Assembly (NCBI GenBank): GCA_003554345.1
Contig: PWGE01000401.1
Location: 1 to 8,171 of the forward strand
DNA length: 8,171 bases
Direction: 5' to 3'
Origin: T1SED10-198M sp003554345 [NCBI: Candidatus Sumerlaeota bacterium]
GTDB taxonomy: Bacteria > Sumerlaeota > T1SED10-198M
Under the pieces are notes generated by a model that was not told where the DNA came from, ran no database searches, and worked only from the letters and a program-made list of their open reading frames with translations. Position numbers and translations under genes: made by a program. The number at the start of each line of letters is the position of its first letter. The first letter of the stretch is position 1. This document shows, in pieces, positions 2,479 to 8,171 of the stretch.

Positions 2479-2877
2479 ATGAAAATTAATACTGCATAAA
2501 GACATTCCCAGGTTGGTGATGGGCTGTGCTATTGTAGAAATAATAACCTGGGACCGGGTTTTTTAGAATCGGTGTATGAAAAAACGATGATAATTGCCTT
2601 ATAACAGGCTGGACTGCAGGTTGAAAAGCAGTATCCTGTTAAAGTGTTTTTCAGGGAAACCAGTGTAGGAGACTTTTATACGGACCTGCTTGTTGAAGAA
2701 AAAGTGACTGTTGAATTAAAAGTTGTAAAATCTCTTATGCCTGAACACAGGGCTCAGGTTATCAGTTATTTAAAAGCTATAGAAAAAGAAGTTGGACTAT
2801 TGATACATGCTAGTAATTGACCATTGGAATACAATATATTGAACCGAAATAAAGAAAACCATCTAAAAAATCAATAA
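2479..2877 (+). pseudogene. Decayed GxxExxY (PDDEXK_3-like) protein gene
   Basis: Translating across lesions gives a recognisable GxxExxY-family protein (PF13366-type, PDDEXK nuclease fold, role not established). ATG 2479 reads MKINT, then an extra base near 2494 shifts frame; HKDIPRLVMGCAIVE continues in the shifted frame. A one-base loss near 2539 restores frame for NNLGPGFLESVYE, which holds the family GxxExxY signature. A TAA at 2602-2604 interrupts the next helix. The conserved middle follows (QVEKQYPVKVFFRE, DFYTDLLVEEKVTVELK, EHRAQVISYLKA), then a TGA at 2818-2820 splits the end, after which PLEYNILNRN continues to TAA 2875-2877. The nuclease-fold acidic and Lys residues (TDLLVE, VELK) survive, which suggests fairly recent decay. 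The remnant begins 27 bases after the preceding gene and borders a large repeat field. Sequencing error could explain one lesion but hardly four. Confidence 0.88.
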
Positions 2878-3380
2878 ATTATATTTATGATAAGCAATTC
2901 GGTATCTACTCAAGAGGAAAAAGCATTTTATGTTAGAAACCTGAGTCTTATTTCGTTTGATAAGATTCACCTGTTTCAAAATATAAAATGTCCGTTCTTT
3001 TTTCTTTTTCCGGGCAATTCTTATTCTGTCTCTCTCAACAATATAGGTTCGAAGATCGGTTCTTATCAATTTTATTTGTCATCGATATCTGGTGGTCTTA
3101 TCCTGTCTATTCTTCCCATCGATGTTGAAAATCCGGCTTCTTATCTGTCTTCAGATATTTCTTATCTAGCATACCCTGTACATCAATTTTCAAACCTCAG
3201 TTCTTTGACTTATTCTTTCTTTTTCAGCAATTTCATCCTGTCTATCCTGCAAATCGAGGCTCTATCAGAAGTCAGAATACAGAATTCAGTATTCAGTAGT
3301 AAGAACAGGCAAAGAAATATTGGGTTTAATGGTTATTAGACAAAATAAAATATGTGGACTCTTTTTTCTGTCTTCCTGCA
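2878..3380. repeat. Pyrimidine-rich non-coding tract with degenerate short repeats
   Basis: No credible gene. The plus strand is pyrimidine-rich and carries degenerate copies of a TATCCTGTNN-like unit (around 3099-3110 and 3233-3250). At 3266-3299 is a separate CAGAATTCAGTATTCAG-type array of 7-9 nt steps. Frames that stay open here translate to low-complexity Ser/Leu/Ile strings, for example LILSIL and FILSIL, which merely mirror the repeats. Confidence 0.6.
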
Positions 3381-3382
3381 AG

Positions 3383-3397
3383 TCCGCCTCTGGCGGA
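3383..3397. repeat. TCCGCC-TCT-GGCGGA hairpin, copy 1
   Basis: Perfect 6-bp stem with a 3-nt loop, followed by TTGGCGTCTTTGCG. First of four copies. The surrounding bases match the core of the elements at 5.9 and 7.95 kb. Confidence 0.85.
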
Positions 3398-3422
3398 TTG
3401 GCGTCTTTGCGAGCTCCTACCC

Positions 3423-3716
3423 TGCGTGAGACAATCTTATTTCTGAGGTTTGCTACTCTTCCTCTGCTTCTCTTTTCCAAAAGCTTATTATTTTCTCCGC
3501 GATCTTGCAGGTATCTGTCTGTATTTAAATTCCGTTATGTCTTCTTTGCGACTTTGCGAACTTTGCGTGAGACAATCTTACTCTGGTATTCTTCTCTCTT
3601 TCCCAAAAGCTTATTATCTTCTTGGCGATCTTGTAAGTATTTACCGGGATTAAATGAGACTGTTCTGCATCCATTTTATTTGGATCTTCCTGAAAGTCCG
3701 CCTCTGGCGGATTTGC
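3423..3716. repeat. 294-bp direct repeat, copy 1
   Basis: Matches 4026-4319 at a constant offset of 603 bases with no indels I could find. Divergence is concentrated around 3486-3515. It contains CCAAAAGCTT boxes, a TTTGCG array (3545-3568), TTACCGGGATTAAATGAGAC and a TCCGCC/GGCGGA hairpin at its right end. It is internally repetitive, with two related half-units each starting near CCAAAAGCTT. Confidence 0.9.
3697..3711. repeat. TCCGCC-TCT-GGCGGA hairpin, copy 2
   Basis: Identical 15-base palindrome preceded by TCCTGAAAG and followed by TTTGCGCCTTTGCG. It lies at the right end of direct repeat copy 1. Confidence 0.85.
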
Positions 3717-4025
3717 GCCTTTGCGTGATGTTTTCTTATTTCTGTGGCTTGTTTTTCTTTATCCCTATCCTGTATATCCTGTTCATCCTGTTAAATTTTA
3801 TCTTTTCTTTAATTTTTCTCTCTTATCTCTCTTTTCCAAAAGATATTTATCTTCCTGAAAGTCCGCCTCTGGCGGATTTGCATCTCCTTTGCGTAACTTT
3901 GCGTGAGAAATTCTTATTCTGGTCTTCTTATCTGCCCCCCGAAATTTTTATCTCTTCTCCGAGTTCTTGGTGGTATTTGCCTGTATTTAAATTCCGTTCT
4001 GTTTTCTTTGCGACTTTGCGAGCTT
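3717..4025. repeat. Spacer between the direct repeats, itself repeat-derived
   Basis: Contains a three-step ATCCTGT array (TATCCTGTATATCCTGTTC, 3767-3785, then CATCCTGTTA), a CCAAAAGATA box at 3836, hairpin copy 3, a TTTGCG pair (3889-3906) and a partial third copy of the CTGTATTTAAATTCCGTT module beginning at 3981. The bases from 3851 to about 3907 match 4289 to 4345 at an offset of 438. No gene is credible here. Confidence 0.75.
3862..3876. repeat. TCCGCC-TCT-GGCGGA hairpin, copy 3
   Basis: Identical palindrome in the context CTTCCTGAAAG / TTTGCATCTCC, matching copy 4 on both sides. Confidence 0.85.
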
Positions 4026-4319
4026 TGCGTGAGGCAATCTTATTCCTGAGGTTTGCTACTCTTCCTCTGCTTCTCTTTTCCAAAAGCTTTTTGTCTTATT
4101 TGCGGTCTTGGAGGTATCTGTCTGTATTTATATTCCGTTCTGTCTTCTTTGCGACTTTGCGAGCTTTGCGTGAGACAATCTTACTCTGGTATTCTTCTCT
4201 CTTTTCCAAAAGCTTATTATCTTCTTGGCGATCTTGTAAGTATTTACCGGGATTAAATGAGACTGTTCTGCATCCATTTTATTTGGATCTTCCTGAAAGT
4301 CCGCCTCTGGCGGATTTGC
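4026..4319. repeat. 294-bp direct repeat, copy 2
   Basis: Second copy of 3423-3716 at offset 603. It carries the same order of CCAAAAGCTT boxes, TTTGCG array (4148-4171), TTACCGGGATTAAATGAGAC and terminal hairpin. Its right end stops about 70 bases before the wecE start, so the wecE promoter and leader must lie in or just beyond repeat DNA. Confidence 0.9.
4300..4314. repeat. TCCGCC-TCT-GGCGGA hairpin, copy 4
   Basis: Fourth identical palindrome, 75 bases before the wecE start codon, at the right end of direct repeat copy 2. Confidence 0.85.
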
Positions 4320-4324
4320 ATCTC

Positions 4325-4348
4325 CTTTGCGTAACTTTGCGTGAGACA
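4325..4348. repeat. TTTGCG short-period array (example nearest wecE)
   Basis: CTTTGCGTAACTTTGCGTGAG is the last of a family of degenerate arrays with a 9-nt step (consensus CTTTGCGNN). Others lie near 3405, 3545-3568, 3719, 3889-3906, 4008-4031 and 4148-4171. Most end in GCGTGAGACAATCTT. Confidence 0.8.
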
Positions 4349-4378
4349 ATCTTTTCCCGGTCTTTTCCTGACTCCTTG

Positions 4379-4388: not shown

Positions 4389-5528
4389 ATGCGTATACCA
4401 TTTAACAAACCCTATTTTACCGGCAAAGAGACCCAATATATTGAAGATGCCGTTCAATCCGGCAAGATATCCGGTGATGGTAAGTATACCATGAAGTGTC
4501 ACCGGTTTTTCGAAGATCGTTATGGTTTTCATAAGGTGCTTTTAACCACCTCCTGTACAGATGCCCTTGAAATGGCGGCTATACTCATTGATATACAACC
4601 CGGCGACGAAGTGATCGTGCCTTCTTATACCTTTGTTTCCACTGCCAATGCCTTTGTATTGCGTGGTGCGAAGATTGTCTTTGCAGACAGCCACCCGGAT
4701 CATCCTGGCATAAATGAAGAGGAGATTGAAAAATGTATTACTCCACGCACTCGTGCTGTCGTGGCGATGCATTATGCCGGTAGAGCCTGTAATATGGATA
4801 AGATTAATTCCCTTGCTGAAAAATACGGGCTCTATGTTATTGAAGACGCTGCGCAGGCGATAGACAGTTATTATAATGGGAAGCCCCTGGGTTCTTTCGG
4901 TCACCTTGCTGCATTTTCTTTTCATGAAACAAAGAATATCATTTCAGGTGAAGGAGGCATGCTTGTTATTAATGACGAACGTCTCGTGGAGCGCGCTGAA
5001 ATAATAAGGGAAAAAGGAACTAACCGTTCTGCCTTTTTTAGAGGCGAGGTGGATAAATATGGATGGGTGGATATCGGCTCTTCTTTTTTACCATCCGATA
5101 TCATAGCCGCAGTACTCTATGCCCAGCTGCAAAATATTGACCTTATCCAGTCAAGGCGCCGAGAAATATGGAATGATTACGATAAACTCCTTAATCCACT
5201 GGCTCAACAGGGATTCATAACAACTCCTTATTATCCCCCCGGTACTACCAACAATGGGCATATATATTATCTGGTCTGTCGTTCAGGAAAAGAACGAGAT
5301 GAACTCATGACCCACCTCAAAGAACAGGGTATATTAGCCGTATTTCATTACCTTTCTCTTCATCGATCACTGTATTACCGGGATAAACATGATGGACGAA
5401 CATTACCCAATGCCGATAGATTTTCAGACTGCTTACTACGCCTTCCCTTTTATTTCCAATTAAAAGAAAAGGAAATACAGTATATTTCAAGACAGATTAA
5501 TGAATTTTATAAAAGAAGACTCCTCTGA
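4389..5528 (+). CDS. wecE: dTDP-4-oxo-6-deoxy-glucose aminotransferase (WecE/RffA type)
   Basis: A 379-residue DegT/DnrJ/EryC1/StrS-family PLP aminotransferase that resembles enterobacterial WecE (376 residues) along its whole length. WecE transaminates dTDP-4-oxo-6-deoxy-D-glucose with glutamate to give dTDP-4-amino-4,6-dideoxy-D-galactose for surface glycans; it is cytoplasmic. Seen: IPFNKP at the N-terminus (3-8), LTTSCTDALEMAA (52-64), PGDEVIVPSYTFVSTANAF (71-89), the VIEDAAQ Asp that contacts the PLP ring nitrogen (150-156), FSFHETKN with Schiff-base Lys182, EIIREKGTNRS (204-214), VDKYGWVDIGSS (221-232), ILAVFHYLSLH (315-325) and LLRLPFYF (349-356). ATG 4389 has a good ribosome site, and starting here gives the family N-terminus exactly. 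No partner sugar genes (rmlA/rmlB, wecD) are in the window. The TGA stop lies in a 15-base match to the element at 5800-5814. The exact sugar substrate is inferred from similarity. Confidence 0.94.
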   Translation: MRIPFNKPYFTGKETQYIEDAVQSGKISGDGKYTMKCHRFFEDRYGFHKVLLTTSCTDALEMAAILIDIQPGDEVIVPSYTFVSTANAFVLRGAKIVFADSHPDHPGINEEEIEKCITPRTRAVVAMHYAGRACNMDKINSLAEKYGLYVIEDAAQAIDSYYNGKPLGSFGHLAAFSFHETKNIISGEGGMLVINDERLVERAEIIREKGTNRSAFFRGEVDKYGWVDIGSSFLPSDIIAAVLYAQLQNIDLIQSRRREIWNDYDKLLNPLAQQGFITTPYYPPGTTNNGHIYYLVCRSGKERDELMTHLKEQGILAVFHYLSLHRSLYYRDKHDGRTLPNADRFSDCLLRLPFYFQLKEKEIQYISRQINEFYKRRLL

Positions 5529-5533
5529 AAATA
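5519..5533. repeat. Fragment of the modular element overlapping the wecE stop
   Basis: ACTCCTCTGAAAATA is identical to 5800-5814, and a further CCCT follows in both places. The wecE stop codon TGA (5526-5528) lies inside it. Confidence 0.6.
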
Positions 5534-5765
5534 ATACCCTGGAAAAGAGGTTTTACATCGATGATACGGGGATGAAGTCGAGATAAGTCCAGAAAAAAGA
5601 AAAAACCAGAAAAATTTGCATCGATTAACAGGATGAAGAGGATAAGGACCTCAGAAAAATCTGCAAGAATCAGATTTTAAAGAAAAACAATGTGAAAAAT
5701 AAAGAAAACCAGGAAAAAAATTCACTCTTCCCGGTATCTTCTTCAGTAACACATAAATTTTCATG
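5534..5765. other. Purine-rich non-coding tract downstream of wecE
   Basis: No gene is visible. The plus strand is purine-rich, the mirror of the tract at 2.9-4.3 kb. It includes TTAACAGGATGAAGAGGATA (5625-5644), a reverse-orientation relative of the ATCCTGT repeats. I see no clear Rho-independent terminator for wecE. Confidence 0.5.
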
Positions 5766-5773
5766 ATTGGTGG

Positions 5774-5793
5774 CGCTGATGTCCGCATCAGCG
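5774..5793. repeat. Module A hairpin, stem CGCTGATG/CATCAGCG
   Basis: Perfect 8-bp stem with a TCCG loop, flanked by GGTGG and TGAGGAACT, the conserved module A borders. Confidence 0.85.
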
Positions 5794-5887
5794 TGAGGAA
5801 CTCCTCTGAAAATAGACCCTACAAAATATAGTATACGTCGCTATAAAAACTTTCACTTCATGAGTGTATTTCTGCTTTCCCGGGAGC

Positions 5888-5926
5888 GCCGATCCCCGAC
5901 TTACAGTTCACTCTGGCGGAATCGGC
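5888..5926. repeat. B-core hairpin, copy 1
   Basis: A 39-base palindromic unit with an outer GCCGAT/ATCGGC stem and an inner TCCG/CGGG stem (minus-strand sense) separated by one bulged base. It pairs through a U-G in the minus-strand RNA. Same length and position as 7946-7984. Confidence 0.75.
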
Positions 5927-5999
5927 ATCTTATTCTTATTCTGAAAGTTCACTATGGCGGTATCGGCATCTTATTCTGAAAATTCACTCCGGCAAATTC
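5907..5999. repeat. Tandem TTCACT-GGCGG-ATCGGCATC units
   Basis: Three head-to-tail units: 5907-5947 (41 bases), 5948-5982 (35 bases; lacks one TTATTC step) and a degraded third from 5983. Each opens TTCACTNNGGC; the first two continue GGCGGNATCGGCATCTTATT. Confidence 0.85.
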
Positions 6000-6010
6000 A
6001 TCACAGGTGG

Positions 6011-6030
6011 TGCCAGTCCTGGCGCTGGCG
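6011..6030. repeat. Module A hairpin, stem TGCCAG/CTGGCG
   Basis: Six-pair stem with one T-G pair, between GGTGG and TGAGGAACT. It lies just past the stop codon of the phosphodiesterase on its sense strand and could mark the 3' end of that transcript, but no T-run follows. Confidence 0.65.
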
Positions 6031-6037
6031 TGAGGAA

Positions 6038-7678
6038 CTACCATGAAAAGGTCAGACCTATTCCTTTGGGGACAATCCAGGTCAGATCAATGTGAGGATG
6101 AAAATCCCATGAAAGAGAAAGATAGGAATCCTGATGACGGTAGGAACGAAAATATTGAAACCGGGAGCTGAGCTGTTGGTAACGCATTTCATAGCTCAAA
6201 CTCATGACAGGTTCGAGATCTGAATGGACATATTGAGCACCTATACCTGCCCAGAAACGCGTCAGATAAGAAGAAAAAATATCCCTTTCTCCCCACAGTC
6301 TTCCTCCACGCCTGTCGACTCTGCCGCCAATACGCCATCGGTAAGCGGGGGAATAGTAGGCTTGCATACCCCGGTAACTCTGGCGGTCGGAGTGACTCCC
6401 CCAGATAGCAAGCTGATGTTCTTCTCTGGAGGGTTCAGACCCTTCTATATCCAGGGCGGGAATCTTGTTATAAAGTCTGTGTAACCAGAGAAAATCTCTG
6501 TCATAAAGGTGCTCTACTTCTTTTCCCCTGAGCAGAATGGGGACAGATAAGTCTGTGTCCCTCAGTCCAGCATGATGAGCCCTGGTTATATAAAAAAGAT
6601 CAGCAGGCATATTAGGGTGGTCTAAAATTATTACCACGTCACCGGTTCGTGGATTCTGAACGTACCAGTAAAGTAAGGGAGGAGTTGCTGGATATTGAGC
6701 CTCGTGCGTGAGGGCGAGCCATTCATCAGGAGAAAGATACTCCCCGTCATAACCTATTTCACCGTAAGAAAAAGGGTCTTTTCCTTTGTAGGAATATCTT
6801 ATCCCTTCATTCTTTTTTGTGAAGGTAAGTTCAGATTCACGATAGTATCCTTTGACGGTTTTATGATCCTTTCGGTAAAAAGCAAAGTCAATCTCTGTTT
6901 GAGATACTAATTTTTGAGCTGCCTGAGGTTTTGTTTCCGGATTTTTTAAGTAGAGATTGGGCTTGAAAAAGGCAATAGTTTCTTCTTCCAGGACCTTTTG
7001 AATTTCCTTTTGCAGATCTACCCGGTTTAAATGTGAAAAAGTCATGCCGTGATCGGCATAAATGATGATATTAACATCTTCATCCAGGCGCCTTTCCAGT
7101 TTGCCAAAGTAGTGGTCAAAGCGATAGAGCTGGGGGAGAGTCCCCTCCTCTCCCAGGAAATGACCAAAGGTGTCTGTACTGAACCAGTAGAATTGAACAG
7201 TGTGGTAGTCATCGACAAGATCTGCAAGATTTACCAAAGCCGGTCCTGCCGCCAGATGGTATACCGGTAAACCGTAGAAAAAATTGGTGCGGGCTCGTCG
7301 GGGAAATTTGTCAACCAGGTGAAAGAAAATTTGAGGCTTGGTTGTTTTTTCACTGGTTTCCCTGTCATAATGTCCCCATGCTACAAATTGCCCCGTTTGA
7401 CTGGTTTCACCGGTTCGCAGTCGGGGTACTATCATTTCTGTTTCCCCCGGGAAAAGAGTAAGCCCATGGTGAATGATACCCTCATCCTGAAAGACACGTT
7501 CTAACTCAGGAAGGTTTCCACTTTTATATTCCTGTCTGAATAATTCGCTGGATATACCGTCTAAATGGAGGATAACAAAACGAGGGGTATCTTTCTCAGC
7601 TTTCAAGGAAACCATTAGAGTCAAAATAACAAAAAAGATACCGGCAATGAGTTTTTTTTCAGGTAAACATGAAGCCAT
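6038..7678 (-). CDS. Secreted alkaline-phosphatase-superfamily phosphodiesterase with strand-rich C-terminal domain
   Basis: A 546-residue protein of the type I phosphodiesterase/nucleotide pyrophosphatase branch. N-terminus: KK, a hydrophobic run LIAGIFFVILTLMVSL (10-25) and a probable signal-peptidase site near LKA-E, so export to the periplasm is likely; Cys4 is not in a lipobox. The two-metal site looks complete: Asp40 (HLDG), nucleophile candidate Thr80 (FPGETEM), Asp169 and His173 (STDTFGH), Asp209-His210 (ADHGM), and His369 (AHHAG). The catalytic domain ends near 430. Residues 440-546 show alternating polar/aromatic strands and a final FSW, resembling outer-membrane strands but too short for a typical barrel. 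Substrate unknown; phosphodiester, nucleotide or phospholipid headgroup are possible. ATG 7678 is the only start that keeps the signal peptide; its ribosome site (GGAAAAAG) is weak. Monocistronic, with its own promoter, between inverted copies of a repeat element. The TAG stop sits at the edge of copy 1. Confidence 0.88.
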   Translation of the reverse strand: MASCLPEKKLIAGIFFVILTLMVSLKAEKDTPRFVILHLDGISSELFRQEYKSGNLPELERVFQDEGIIHHGLTLFPGETEMIVPRLRTGETSQTGQFVAWGHYDRETSEKTTKPQIFFHLVDKFPRRARTNFFYGLPVYHLAAGPALVNLADLVDDYHTVQFYWFSTDTFGHFLGEEGTLPQLYRFDHYFGKLERRLDEDVNIIIYADHGMTFSHLNRVDLQKEIQKVLEEETIAFFKPNLYLKNPETKPQAAQKLVSQTEIDFAFYRKDHKTVKGYYRESELTFTKKNEGIRYSYKGKDPFSYGEIGYDGEYLSPDEWLALTHEAQYPATPPLLYWYVQNPRTGDVVIILDHPNMPADLFYITRAHHAGLRDTDLSVPILLRGKEVEHLYDRDFLWLHRLYNKIPALDIEGSEPSREEHQLAIWGSHSDRQSYRGMQAYYSPAYRWRIGGRVDRRGGRLWGERDIFSSYLTRFWAGIGAQYVHSDLEPVMSLSYEMRYQQLSSRFQYFRSYRHQDSYLSLSWDFHPHIDLTWIVPKGIGLTFSW

Positions 7679-7890
7679 GCTTGCTTTTTCCAGGGTGAAA
7701 ATTCAAACTATTACATTTTTGATTATTCTTTAATTTGGGGCATATTATAGTGTTTGAAGTCCAAATTACAAATAATAAACGATTCTTTCGTGCATTGCAG
7801 GGAAAAAGGTGTGGTGAAGTGTTTTGTTTCAGGAAATATTTTACAGCCATTGCATGATCGGAAAAGTTATGTCTTTAATGATTTTATGGG
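7679..7890. other. AT-rich upstream region of the phosphodiesterase
   Basis: No gene. It carries the candidate promoter at 7744-7771. Beyond that (7772-7890) I see no further motif before the modular element begins. Confidence 0.5.
7744..7771 (-). promoter_or_regulatory. Candidate sigma-70-type promoter of the phosphodiesterase
   Basis: On the minus strand, TTGTAA (7771-7766), a 16-base spacer and a consensus TATAAT (7749-7744). It would give a leader of roughly 60 nt before ATG 7678. Confidence 0.6.
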
Positions 7891-7899
7891 GGTCCTCAT

Positions 7900-7917
7900 G
7901 CCGACGCGCACGTTGGC
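7900..7917. repeat. Module A hairpin, stem GCCGACG/CGTTGGC
   Basis: Seven pairs including one G-T, loop CGCA, followed by the conserved GCCACCA border. Confidence 0.75.
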
Positions 7918-7945
7918 GCCACCAATGATAAAATAAGAATAAGAT

Positions 7946-7984
7946 GCCGATTCCGCCAGAGTGAACTGTAAGTCGGAGATCGGC
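7946..7984. repeat. B-core hairpin, copy 2
   Basis: Outer stem GCCGAT/ATCGGC, inner stem TCCG/CGGA, one bulged G at 7978, loop of 18 bases containing CAGAGTGAACTG. Same 39-base length as copy 1. Confidence 0.8.
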
Positions 7985-8078
7985 GCTCCCAGGGAAGCAG
8001 CAAGTCAATAGTGAGGTTTAAGTATTTTTATTAAAGTACATAGTATTTTGTAGAGTTTATTTTCAGATGAGTTCCTCA

Positions 8079-8097
8079 CGCCAGCGCGAGGCTGGCG
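8079..8097. repeat. Module A hairpin, stem CGCCAGC/GCTGGCG
   Basis: Perfect 7-bp stem with a GCGAG loop, between TTCCTCA and CCACCA. Confidence 0.85.
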
Positions 8098-8115
8098 CCA
8101 CCATGGAAGAAAATA

Positions 8116-8155
8116 AGTGGACTTACATGGACTAACACAGACAATATGGACAGAA
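8116..8155. repeat. Degenerate TGGAC/ACATGGACT array
   Basis: TGGACTTACATGGACTAACA followed by CAGACAATATGGACAG: a short-period degenerate array with TGGAC about every 11-22 bases. It directly follows element copy 2 and resembles in kind the other short-period arrays of the window. Confidence 0.55.
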
Positions 8156-8171
8156 CTATAATAAGACCAAA

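Follow-up and report, generated by a model that had tools for sequence, protein, structure and literature searches.

Introduction

The closest described counterparts of the repeats reported here are the repetitive extragenic palindromic (REP) sequences and their REP-associated tyrosine transposases (RAYTs, or TnpAREP), which comprise high-copy extragenic palindromes carrying a GTRG-type tag on one side (PMC2817692, PMC3733652, PMC8266576). In bacterial interspersed mosaic elements (BIMEs) and REPINs, palindromes and linkers are combined into larger composite repeats (PMC2817692, PMC3116915), and the neisserial intergenic mosaic elements and pneumococcal BOX elements are intergenic composites of short modules in variable combination (PMC3049150). 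Here we describe composite repeats in T1SED10-198M sp003554345, a bacterium of the Sumerlaeota. The stretch under study, referred to as the window, is an 8,171-nucleotide contig (PWGE01000401.1, our contig C8) of a 2.55 Mb draft genome (454 contigs, 87.7% complete), in which two such elements lie on either side of a phosphodiesterase (PDE) gene.

Our reading, to which we give a probability of roughly 0.6, is that these elements are pieces of mosaic arrays that lie between genes and are composed of several non-autonomous REP-like families, which have been mobilised in trans, nested in one another and shuffled. The non-autonomous modules would be A, a GTGG-tagged hairpin; B, a GGAG-tagged palindrome; K, tagged GTAG; G, which begins GTAGGGGC; and P, of 21-22 nt. 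A RAYT-type (Y1, HUH) transposase acting in trans would drive the insertion of single units through intermediates of single-stranded DNA, with no duplication of the target, and these units would often land in or beside older copies, giving rise to nesting. Recombination among near-identical copies would then swap left contexts, inserts and tails, which could account for the alternation of conserved and diverged blocks. In short, it was probably a small transposase acting on single-strand DNA that spread the repeats, which were subsequently shuffled.

Results

The modules, short repeats most of which form hairpins, are present in high copy number throughout the genome. For the B core there are 80 sites, 53 exact and 27 with one mismatch, against one for the reversed word, and for the junction sequence J (TATTTTCAGAGGAG) 124 exact copies against none for its reversed word. 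With counts so far above those of the reversed words the repeats are not a chance occurrence, allowing that at least two of the one-mismatch B sites (C73, C210:4346) look like chance. The right arm of A is found at 91 sites within one mismatch. P, within two mismatches, has 110 matches in its commoner TCCGCCAGAGTGAACTTTCAG form and 66 in a GGCGGA form, where each number includes a variant, P', and the two may overlap. Element 1, the one lying to the left of the PDE gene, aligned with at least 84 pieces of its own genome, 40 of 159 first-look candidates being scored. Further copies of the kind expected of a dispersed repeat, as the first-pass annotation had supposed the elements to be, are thus found genome-wide.

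These are whole-genome counts. The detailed analysis of modules below was made on 154,341 bases surrounding 75 of the 80 B sites, with five one-mismatch sites left out; the sample was picked around B, so that its numbers of A, P, J and K are enriched. It contains 22 copies of K, and for 34,073 of its bases there are three or more matches elsewhere in the sample. The repeat blocks lie between called frames (here and throughout, open frames of at least 80 codons rather than gene predictions), the exception being one K inside a RAYT frame. Since 29 of the 75 blocks run into a contig end, the repeats probably also broke the genome assembly.

Outside this genome we compared 39 others of the phylum, none from the same family, in which neither the element (E≤1e-5) nor the junction has a copy and P was matched once, with two mismatches. 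Window positions 5755-6060 found no match in a plasmid collection, nor did one P' pattern in viral contigs. One B pattern picked out 11 stretches in a wider contig collection. Only one of these, a 3.4-kb contig (L096, PULU01000064.1) filed under a Thermoplasmata archaeon bin and probably misbinned, is a real array, the sole one seen outside the genome; it also carries an IS110 transposase, and a frame that is presumably futalosine-hydrolase-like. The other ten have no further module in their 80-nt flanks, with a second core-like match in two (L094, L100).

Within the arrays the modules are extensively reassorted. The 73 copies of A in the sample join at least six kinds of neighbour on each side: on the left, tails (T, 11), K (10), F or S, which are not split from each other (10), E (8), D and G (a single A copy each) and unclassed sequence with J (5), with 27 copies lacking J; and on the right, B (40), X (8), Q (8), Z (5), C (3), a B half (3), V (2) and others (4). 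These classes, like those of B, were set by regular expressions that we wrote, and the neighbour labels are fuzzy, at least two on the right (C21:7290 and C223:4265, both counted as X) looking wrong. For B, 72 of the 75 core matches were tabulated (C181 was dropped as too short, C210:4346 and C73:2313 as chance matches), two of them without a recognised left context and three without a recognised tail or cut. All four combinations are seen for each pair of characters, whether left context N or X with P present or absent (N 44 and 14; X 3 and 5), P present or absent with tail t1 or t2 (20 and 13; 8 and 9), or left context with tail (N 22 and 17; X 4 and 4). Recombination, rather than repeated insertion, would have made these module combinations.

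Is the order A-B-A, suggested in the first-pass annotation as a possible mobile element, a unit at all? The order does occur, with A flanking B on either side in 9 of the 73 B copies; in 30 copies readable on both sides A is upstream only. Among the 58 B copies readable on both sides, however, A stands upstream of 39 and downstream of 10, from which 6.7 double arrangements would be expected by independence. With 9 observed against 6.7, A-B-A is not a unit, and both A and B join many other modules. Nor does an inverted A lie within 140 nt of any of the 73 B copies, an orientation test on which BIMEs or REPINs as such are rejected. Of the earlier description of the elements as non-autonomous and similar either to miniature inverted-repeat transposable elements (MITEs) or to REP sequences and BIMEs, what stands is that they are REP-like, genome-wide and probably non-autonomous; a strict BIME architecture is not supported.

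The junction word TATTTTCAG occurs 110 times in the sample, compared with 4, 5 and 7 times for three control words (a fourth was the complement of one of these). It ends at least six modules other than A, unrelated to each other by eye, and by hand count its exact form follows K in 12 of 22 copies. One could imagine TATTTTCAGAGGAG as a shared site of cleavage and joining where one single-strand transposase assembles unrelated palindromic modules with different tags (GTGG, GGAG, GTAG) into cassette-like intergenic arrays. The dinucleotide at which a RAYT cleaves a single-stranded REP is tied to the tag: it is CT for the E. coli and Stenotrophomonas systems, where attempts to change the cleavage site failed, and CT or CA for the Marinomonas enzyme, a GTGG mutant being cut at CC and still at CA (PMC8266576). 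With CA on one strand of the junction, and both CC and CT on its complement, assembly of this kind would follow the tag rule published for one RAYT (GTGG with CC, GTAG with CT or CA). As a shared cut site J would fit the rule, but such dinucleotides are common; we offer this as a hypothesis only, and a doubtful one. If true, it would make the arrays the product of a REP-based assembly system and not of independent insertions.

In the inner stem of A, 265 of 376 cells are Watson-Crick paired over 47 distinct stems, whereas 1000 whole-arm shuffles gave 211 ± 8 with a maximum of 238; a few founder stems contribute to this covariation, and whole-arm shuffles do not remove such a founder effect. 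GTGG, published as a degenerate variant of GTAG (PMC3733652), adjoins the A stem on the opposite strand in 66 of 73 copies, while K carries GTAG itself. The B tag, GGAG, is one base from the stem, which is preceded by GGGAGC in 63 of 65 copies counted. As single-stranded DNA, two typical copies of A adopt a nested-stem fold (z -4.3 and -4.6); K with its flank folds at z -7.6, P in its GGCGGA form at -4.2 and B together with P' at -2.0.

The nested stem of A would also suit a MITE of a DDE transposon, with ends TATTTTCA and TGAAAATA, insertion at TA and the hairpin inside, in which case B, K and P would be unrelated bystanders. Both 8-nt terminal repeats are present in 36 of the 73 A copies, the right one being split by P in 14, and K-TTTTATTTT/AAGAATAAG-B (C88; here and below a slash in a site marks the point of insertion) may be a paralogous empty site; A has no clean empty sites. 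Against this, 27 of the 73 A copies (one at a contig end) have no left TATTTTCAG within one mismatch and yet keep the inner hairpin, and the same junction word ends the non-A modules described above. We consider a MITE origin unlikely.

Covarying hairpins might instead point to arrays that are maintained as RNA structures, acting as mRNA 3' ends, as attenuators or as 5' leaders with an AGGAG ribosome site. AGGAG does resemble a Shine-Dalgarno site, and some junctions (C224, C261, C112) are no more than 40 nt from where a called frame starts. In the window, though, no Rfam family reaches its gathering score. Moreover, 71 exact junctions are found in the sample, 19 of them with unique DNA on the right, and the next frame after these 19 is co-oriented (gene start) in 8 cases, convergent (gene end) in 10 and not called in one; the repeat blocks likewise occupy 19 tandem, 6 convergent and 4 divergent spaces (n=29, by our own frame calls). 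Maintenance of the arrays as RNA structures seems improbable to us. A related idea, that the tail and AGGAG form a portable promoter or ribosome site, was rejected since there is no orientation bias at the junctions.

P behaves like an insertion of very small size. Of the 73 A copies, 26 have their right-end site (ATGAA/AATA) filled, 34 have it empty and 13 are neither; in the loop of B (GCCGAT/TCGG) P or P' is present in 53 of 72 copies and absent from 19; and in another repeat (CGCAAA/GAAGAC) filled copies are accompanied by six empty candidates. The three sites lie in unrelated places, and comparison of filled with empty copies within the genome revealed no target duplication at any of them. 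On C141, C85, C179 and C210 one half of B is absent beside P, and these fusions have the appearance of recombination across P. The small dispersed repeats of Nostoc, the subject of Elhai et al. 2008, are reportedly 20-odd nt long and inserted precisely, also into other repeats, without duplications; P is like them in size and in its duplication-free insertion, and differs in sequence and host.

Which enzyme could have moved these modules? Our searches were limited to the Y1, IS110 and RAYT families; a DDE partner was not sought. Pfam Y1_Tnp detects one truncated copy in the genome (C235), which matches NF047646 (REP-associated tyrosine transposase) over positions 57-134 and adjoins a GTAGGGGC repeat (G) and, upstream, an A-B array. 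NF047646 adds a near-complete RAYT on C150, matched over positions 9-133 (E 8.2e-16) at 58 bits, below the NCBIfam cut-off of 80. Its protein contains the stretches MPNHVHSLMVI and YYDHIIRN, which we take to be the HUH and tyrosine motifs. Downstream of this gene, within about 345 nt, are three K repeats (GTAG, GACGCAAT..TTGCGTC); none was seen on its upstream side. K, the left neighbour of 10 of the 73 A copies and one of the module families of the arrays, has a resident RAYT, which on our reading would be active; for A, B and P we found none. The suggestion that the elements spread in trans, with a TnpA-REP-like (Y1) transposase in the genome, is probably right: a RAYT-type enzyme is present, and one such enzyme may have moved A, B or P. 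NF047646 has matches (E≤1e-5) in 21 of the 40 phylum genomes, 13 of them over the cut-off. IS110 has one match in the genome (C111).

One K lies inside the C150 open frame (L110 1008-1553; G000:C150:3607-4152) without breaking it, and this transposase may therefore carry a peptide encoded by its own repeat. The GxxExxY (PDDEXK_3) nuclease was tried and rejected as a mobiliser; it has three genome matches, with blocks of repeated DNA in their vicinity. The match in the window (2539-2808, PF13366, E 1e-29) is a remnant interrupted by one TAA, and the other two (C319, C120) are without stops.

In the window, both elements were found where they had been described, in opposite orientation, with arms at 5791-5940 and 7932-8081 (150 nt, 83% complementary) and further inverted arms at 5759-5804 and 7888-7933 and at 6018-6049 and 8060-8091. 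The B core as first described proves to be two nested parts, the palindrome GCCGATTCGGAGATCGGC and, inserted into its loop, P' of 21 nt. A repeat block (5517-6049) lies between DegT and PDE, and element 1 is the part of this block on the PDE side. Read in the direction of B, on the minus strand, the element comprises hairpin A (6004-6042), whose right end carries a degenerate P (5976-5996), then b (AATAAGATGCCGAT), P (5941-5961), b, the B palindrome (5882-5931) with P' in its loop (5900-5920), a tail of subfamily t1 (5815-5881), an exact J (5801-5814) and a distal A (5767-5805; stem CGCTGATG and CATCAGCG, GTGG tag on the opposite strand). Beyond this, also on the minus strand, are module V, which follows A (5640-5766), module D, the left partner of J (5534-5569; the bounds of both by eye), and a second J (5520-5533).

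Element 2, on the plus strand, runs from A (7887-7925, with no J upstream) through b, the B palindrome (7941-7990; P' at 7952-7972), a tail of subfamily t2 (7991-8057) and TATTTTCAG, with the J variant TATTTTCAGATGAG at 8058-8071, to a right-hand A (8067-8104), whose right partner is module C (TGGACTTACATGGAC..., 8105-8171). The module order that the first-pass annotation gave for both elements, A...B-tail-A, is indeed common to them, except that element 1 has one b more and two P copies beyond P'. Its variable spacer is indeed diverged, but consists of two B tail subfamilies.

The inverted pair and the gene it encloses could be seen as a composite mobile unit with the gene as passenger. The inverted copies do flank a single gene (6038-7678, minus strand; Phosphodiest domain, PF01663, E 7.4e-11), and its product has no homologue at E≤1e-10 in the 39 other phylum genomes. 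The two elements, however, differ in tail subfamily and make-up, A-B-A is not recurrent as a unit, and of the 13 contigs on which the sample contains several B copies, 11 have all of them in one orientation, only the window and C306 being mixed. We regard the passenger idea as highly implausible, and the inverted arrangement around the gene looks coincidental.

The stop codons of DegT (5526-5528, TGA, inside J) and PDE (6038-6040, at the left end of A) lie within repeat sequence, and insertions may thus have replaced the last codons of both genes. A second repeat block (3364-4357), directly upstream of the DegT gene, contains a direct repeat of 294 nt with 95% identity, as well as four minus-strand copies of P (3376-3397, 3690-3711, 3855-3876, 4293-4314). 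Elsewhere in the window, 1159-2451 encodes a protein weakly related to phenylacetate-CoA ligases (NCBIfam, far below cut-offs), with no Pfam match at E≤0.001.

Discussion

The arrays share with REP and RAYT systems their high-copy extragenic palindromes, the GTRG-type tag on one side of A and K, the covarying stems of A and a RAYT beside one family, K; they differ in that no cognate RAYT was found for A or B, that B is tagged GGAG, and that several families are nested in each other with one common junction sequence (PMC2817692, PMC3733652, PMC8266576). BIMEs and REPINs similarly build composites, but pair their REPs in alternating or inverted fashion (PMC2817692, PMC3116915), unlike the arrangement around B here. 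The arrays seem to have more module families and freer reassortment than the neisserial mosaic and BOX elements (PMC3049150).

Several observations weigh against our reading. The GGAG tag of B departs from the canonical form, and the fold of B by itself scarcely betters that of its shuffles (z -0.84); the commoner GTGAA form of P (110 matches) lacks the GGCGGA arm and is not a full palindrome; the terminal repeats of A would also fit a MITE; and founder stems contribute to the covariation in A. The filled and empty P sites are compared between copies within one genome. On the side of the enzyme, the sub-threshold C150 protein has no Pfam hit at E≤0.01, and no RAYT flanked on both sides by A, B or P was found in the 87.7% complete genome, for which reason we call these three modules REP-like and not REPs. 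In Pseudomonas, furthermore, single REPs are regarded as remnants that no longer move (PMC3116915), and no inverted A was seen near B in the present arrays.

REP-like repeats are a known kind; the nested multi-family mosaics with a common junction are the new, variant feature. The exact arrangement was not found in print within a limited literature search, and the matches listed for the module words were unrelated by title. The arrays show how far REP-like repeats can occupy intergenic space. The three sites at which P is present or absent without visible target duplication provide a natural test set for the movement of very small repeats, and the resident RAYT, together with its K repeats, offers a protein with which the movement of small repeats could be tested.

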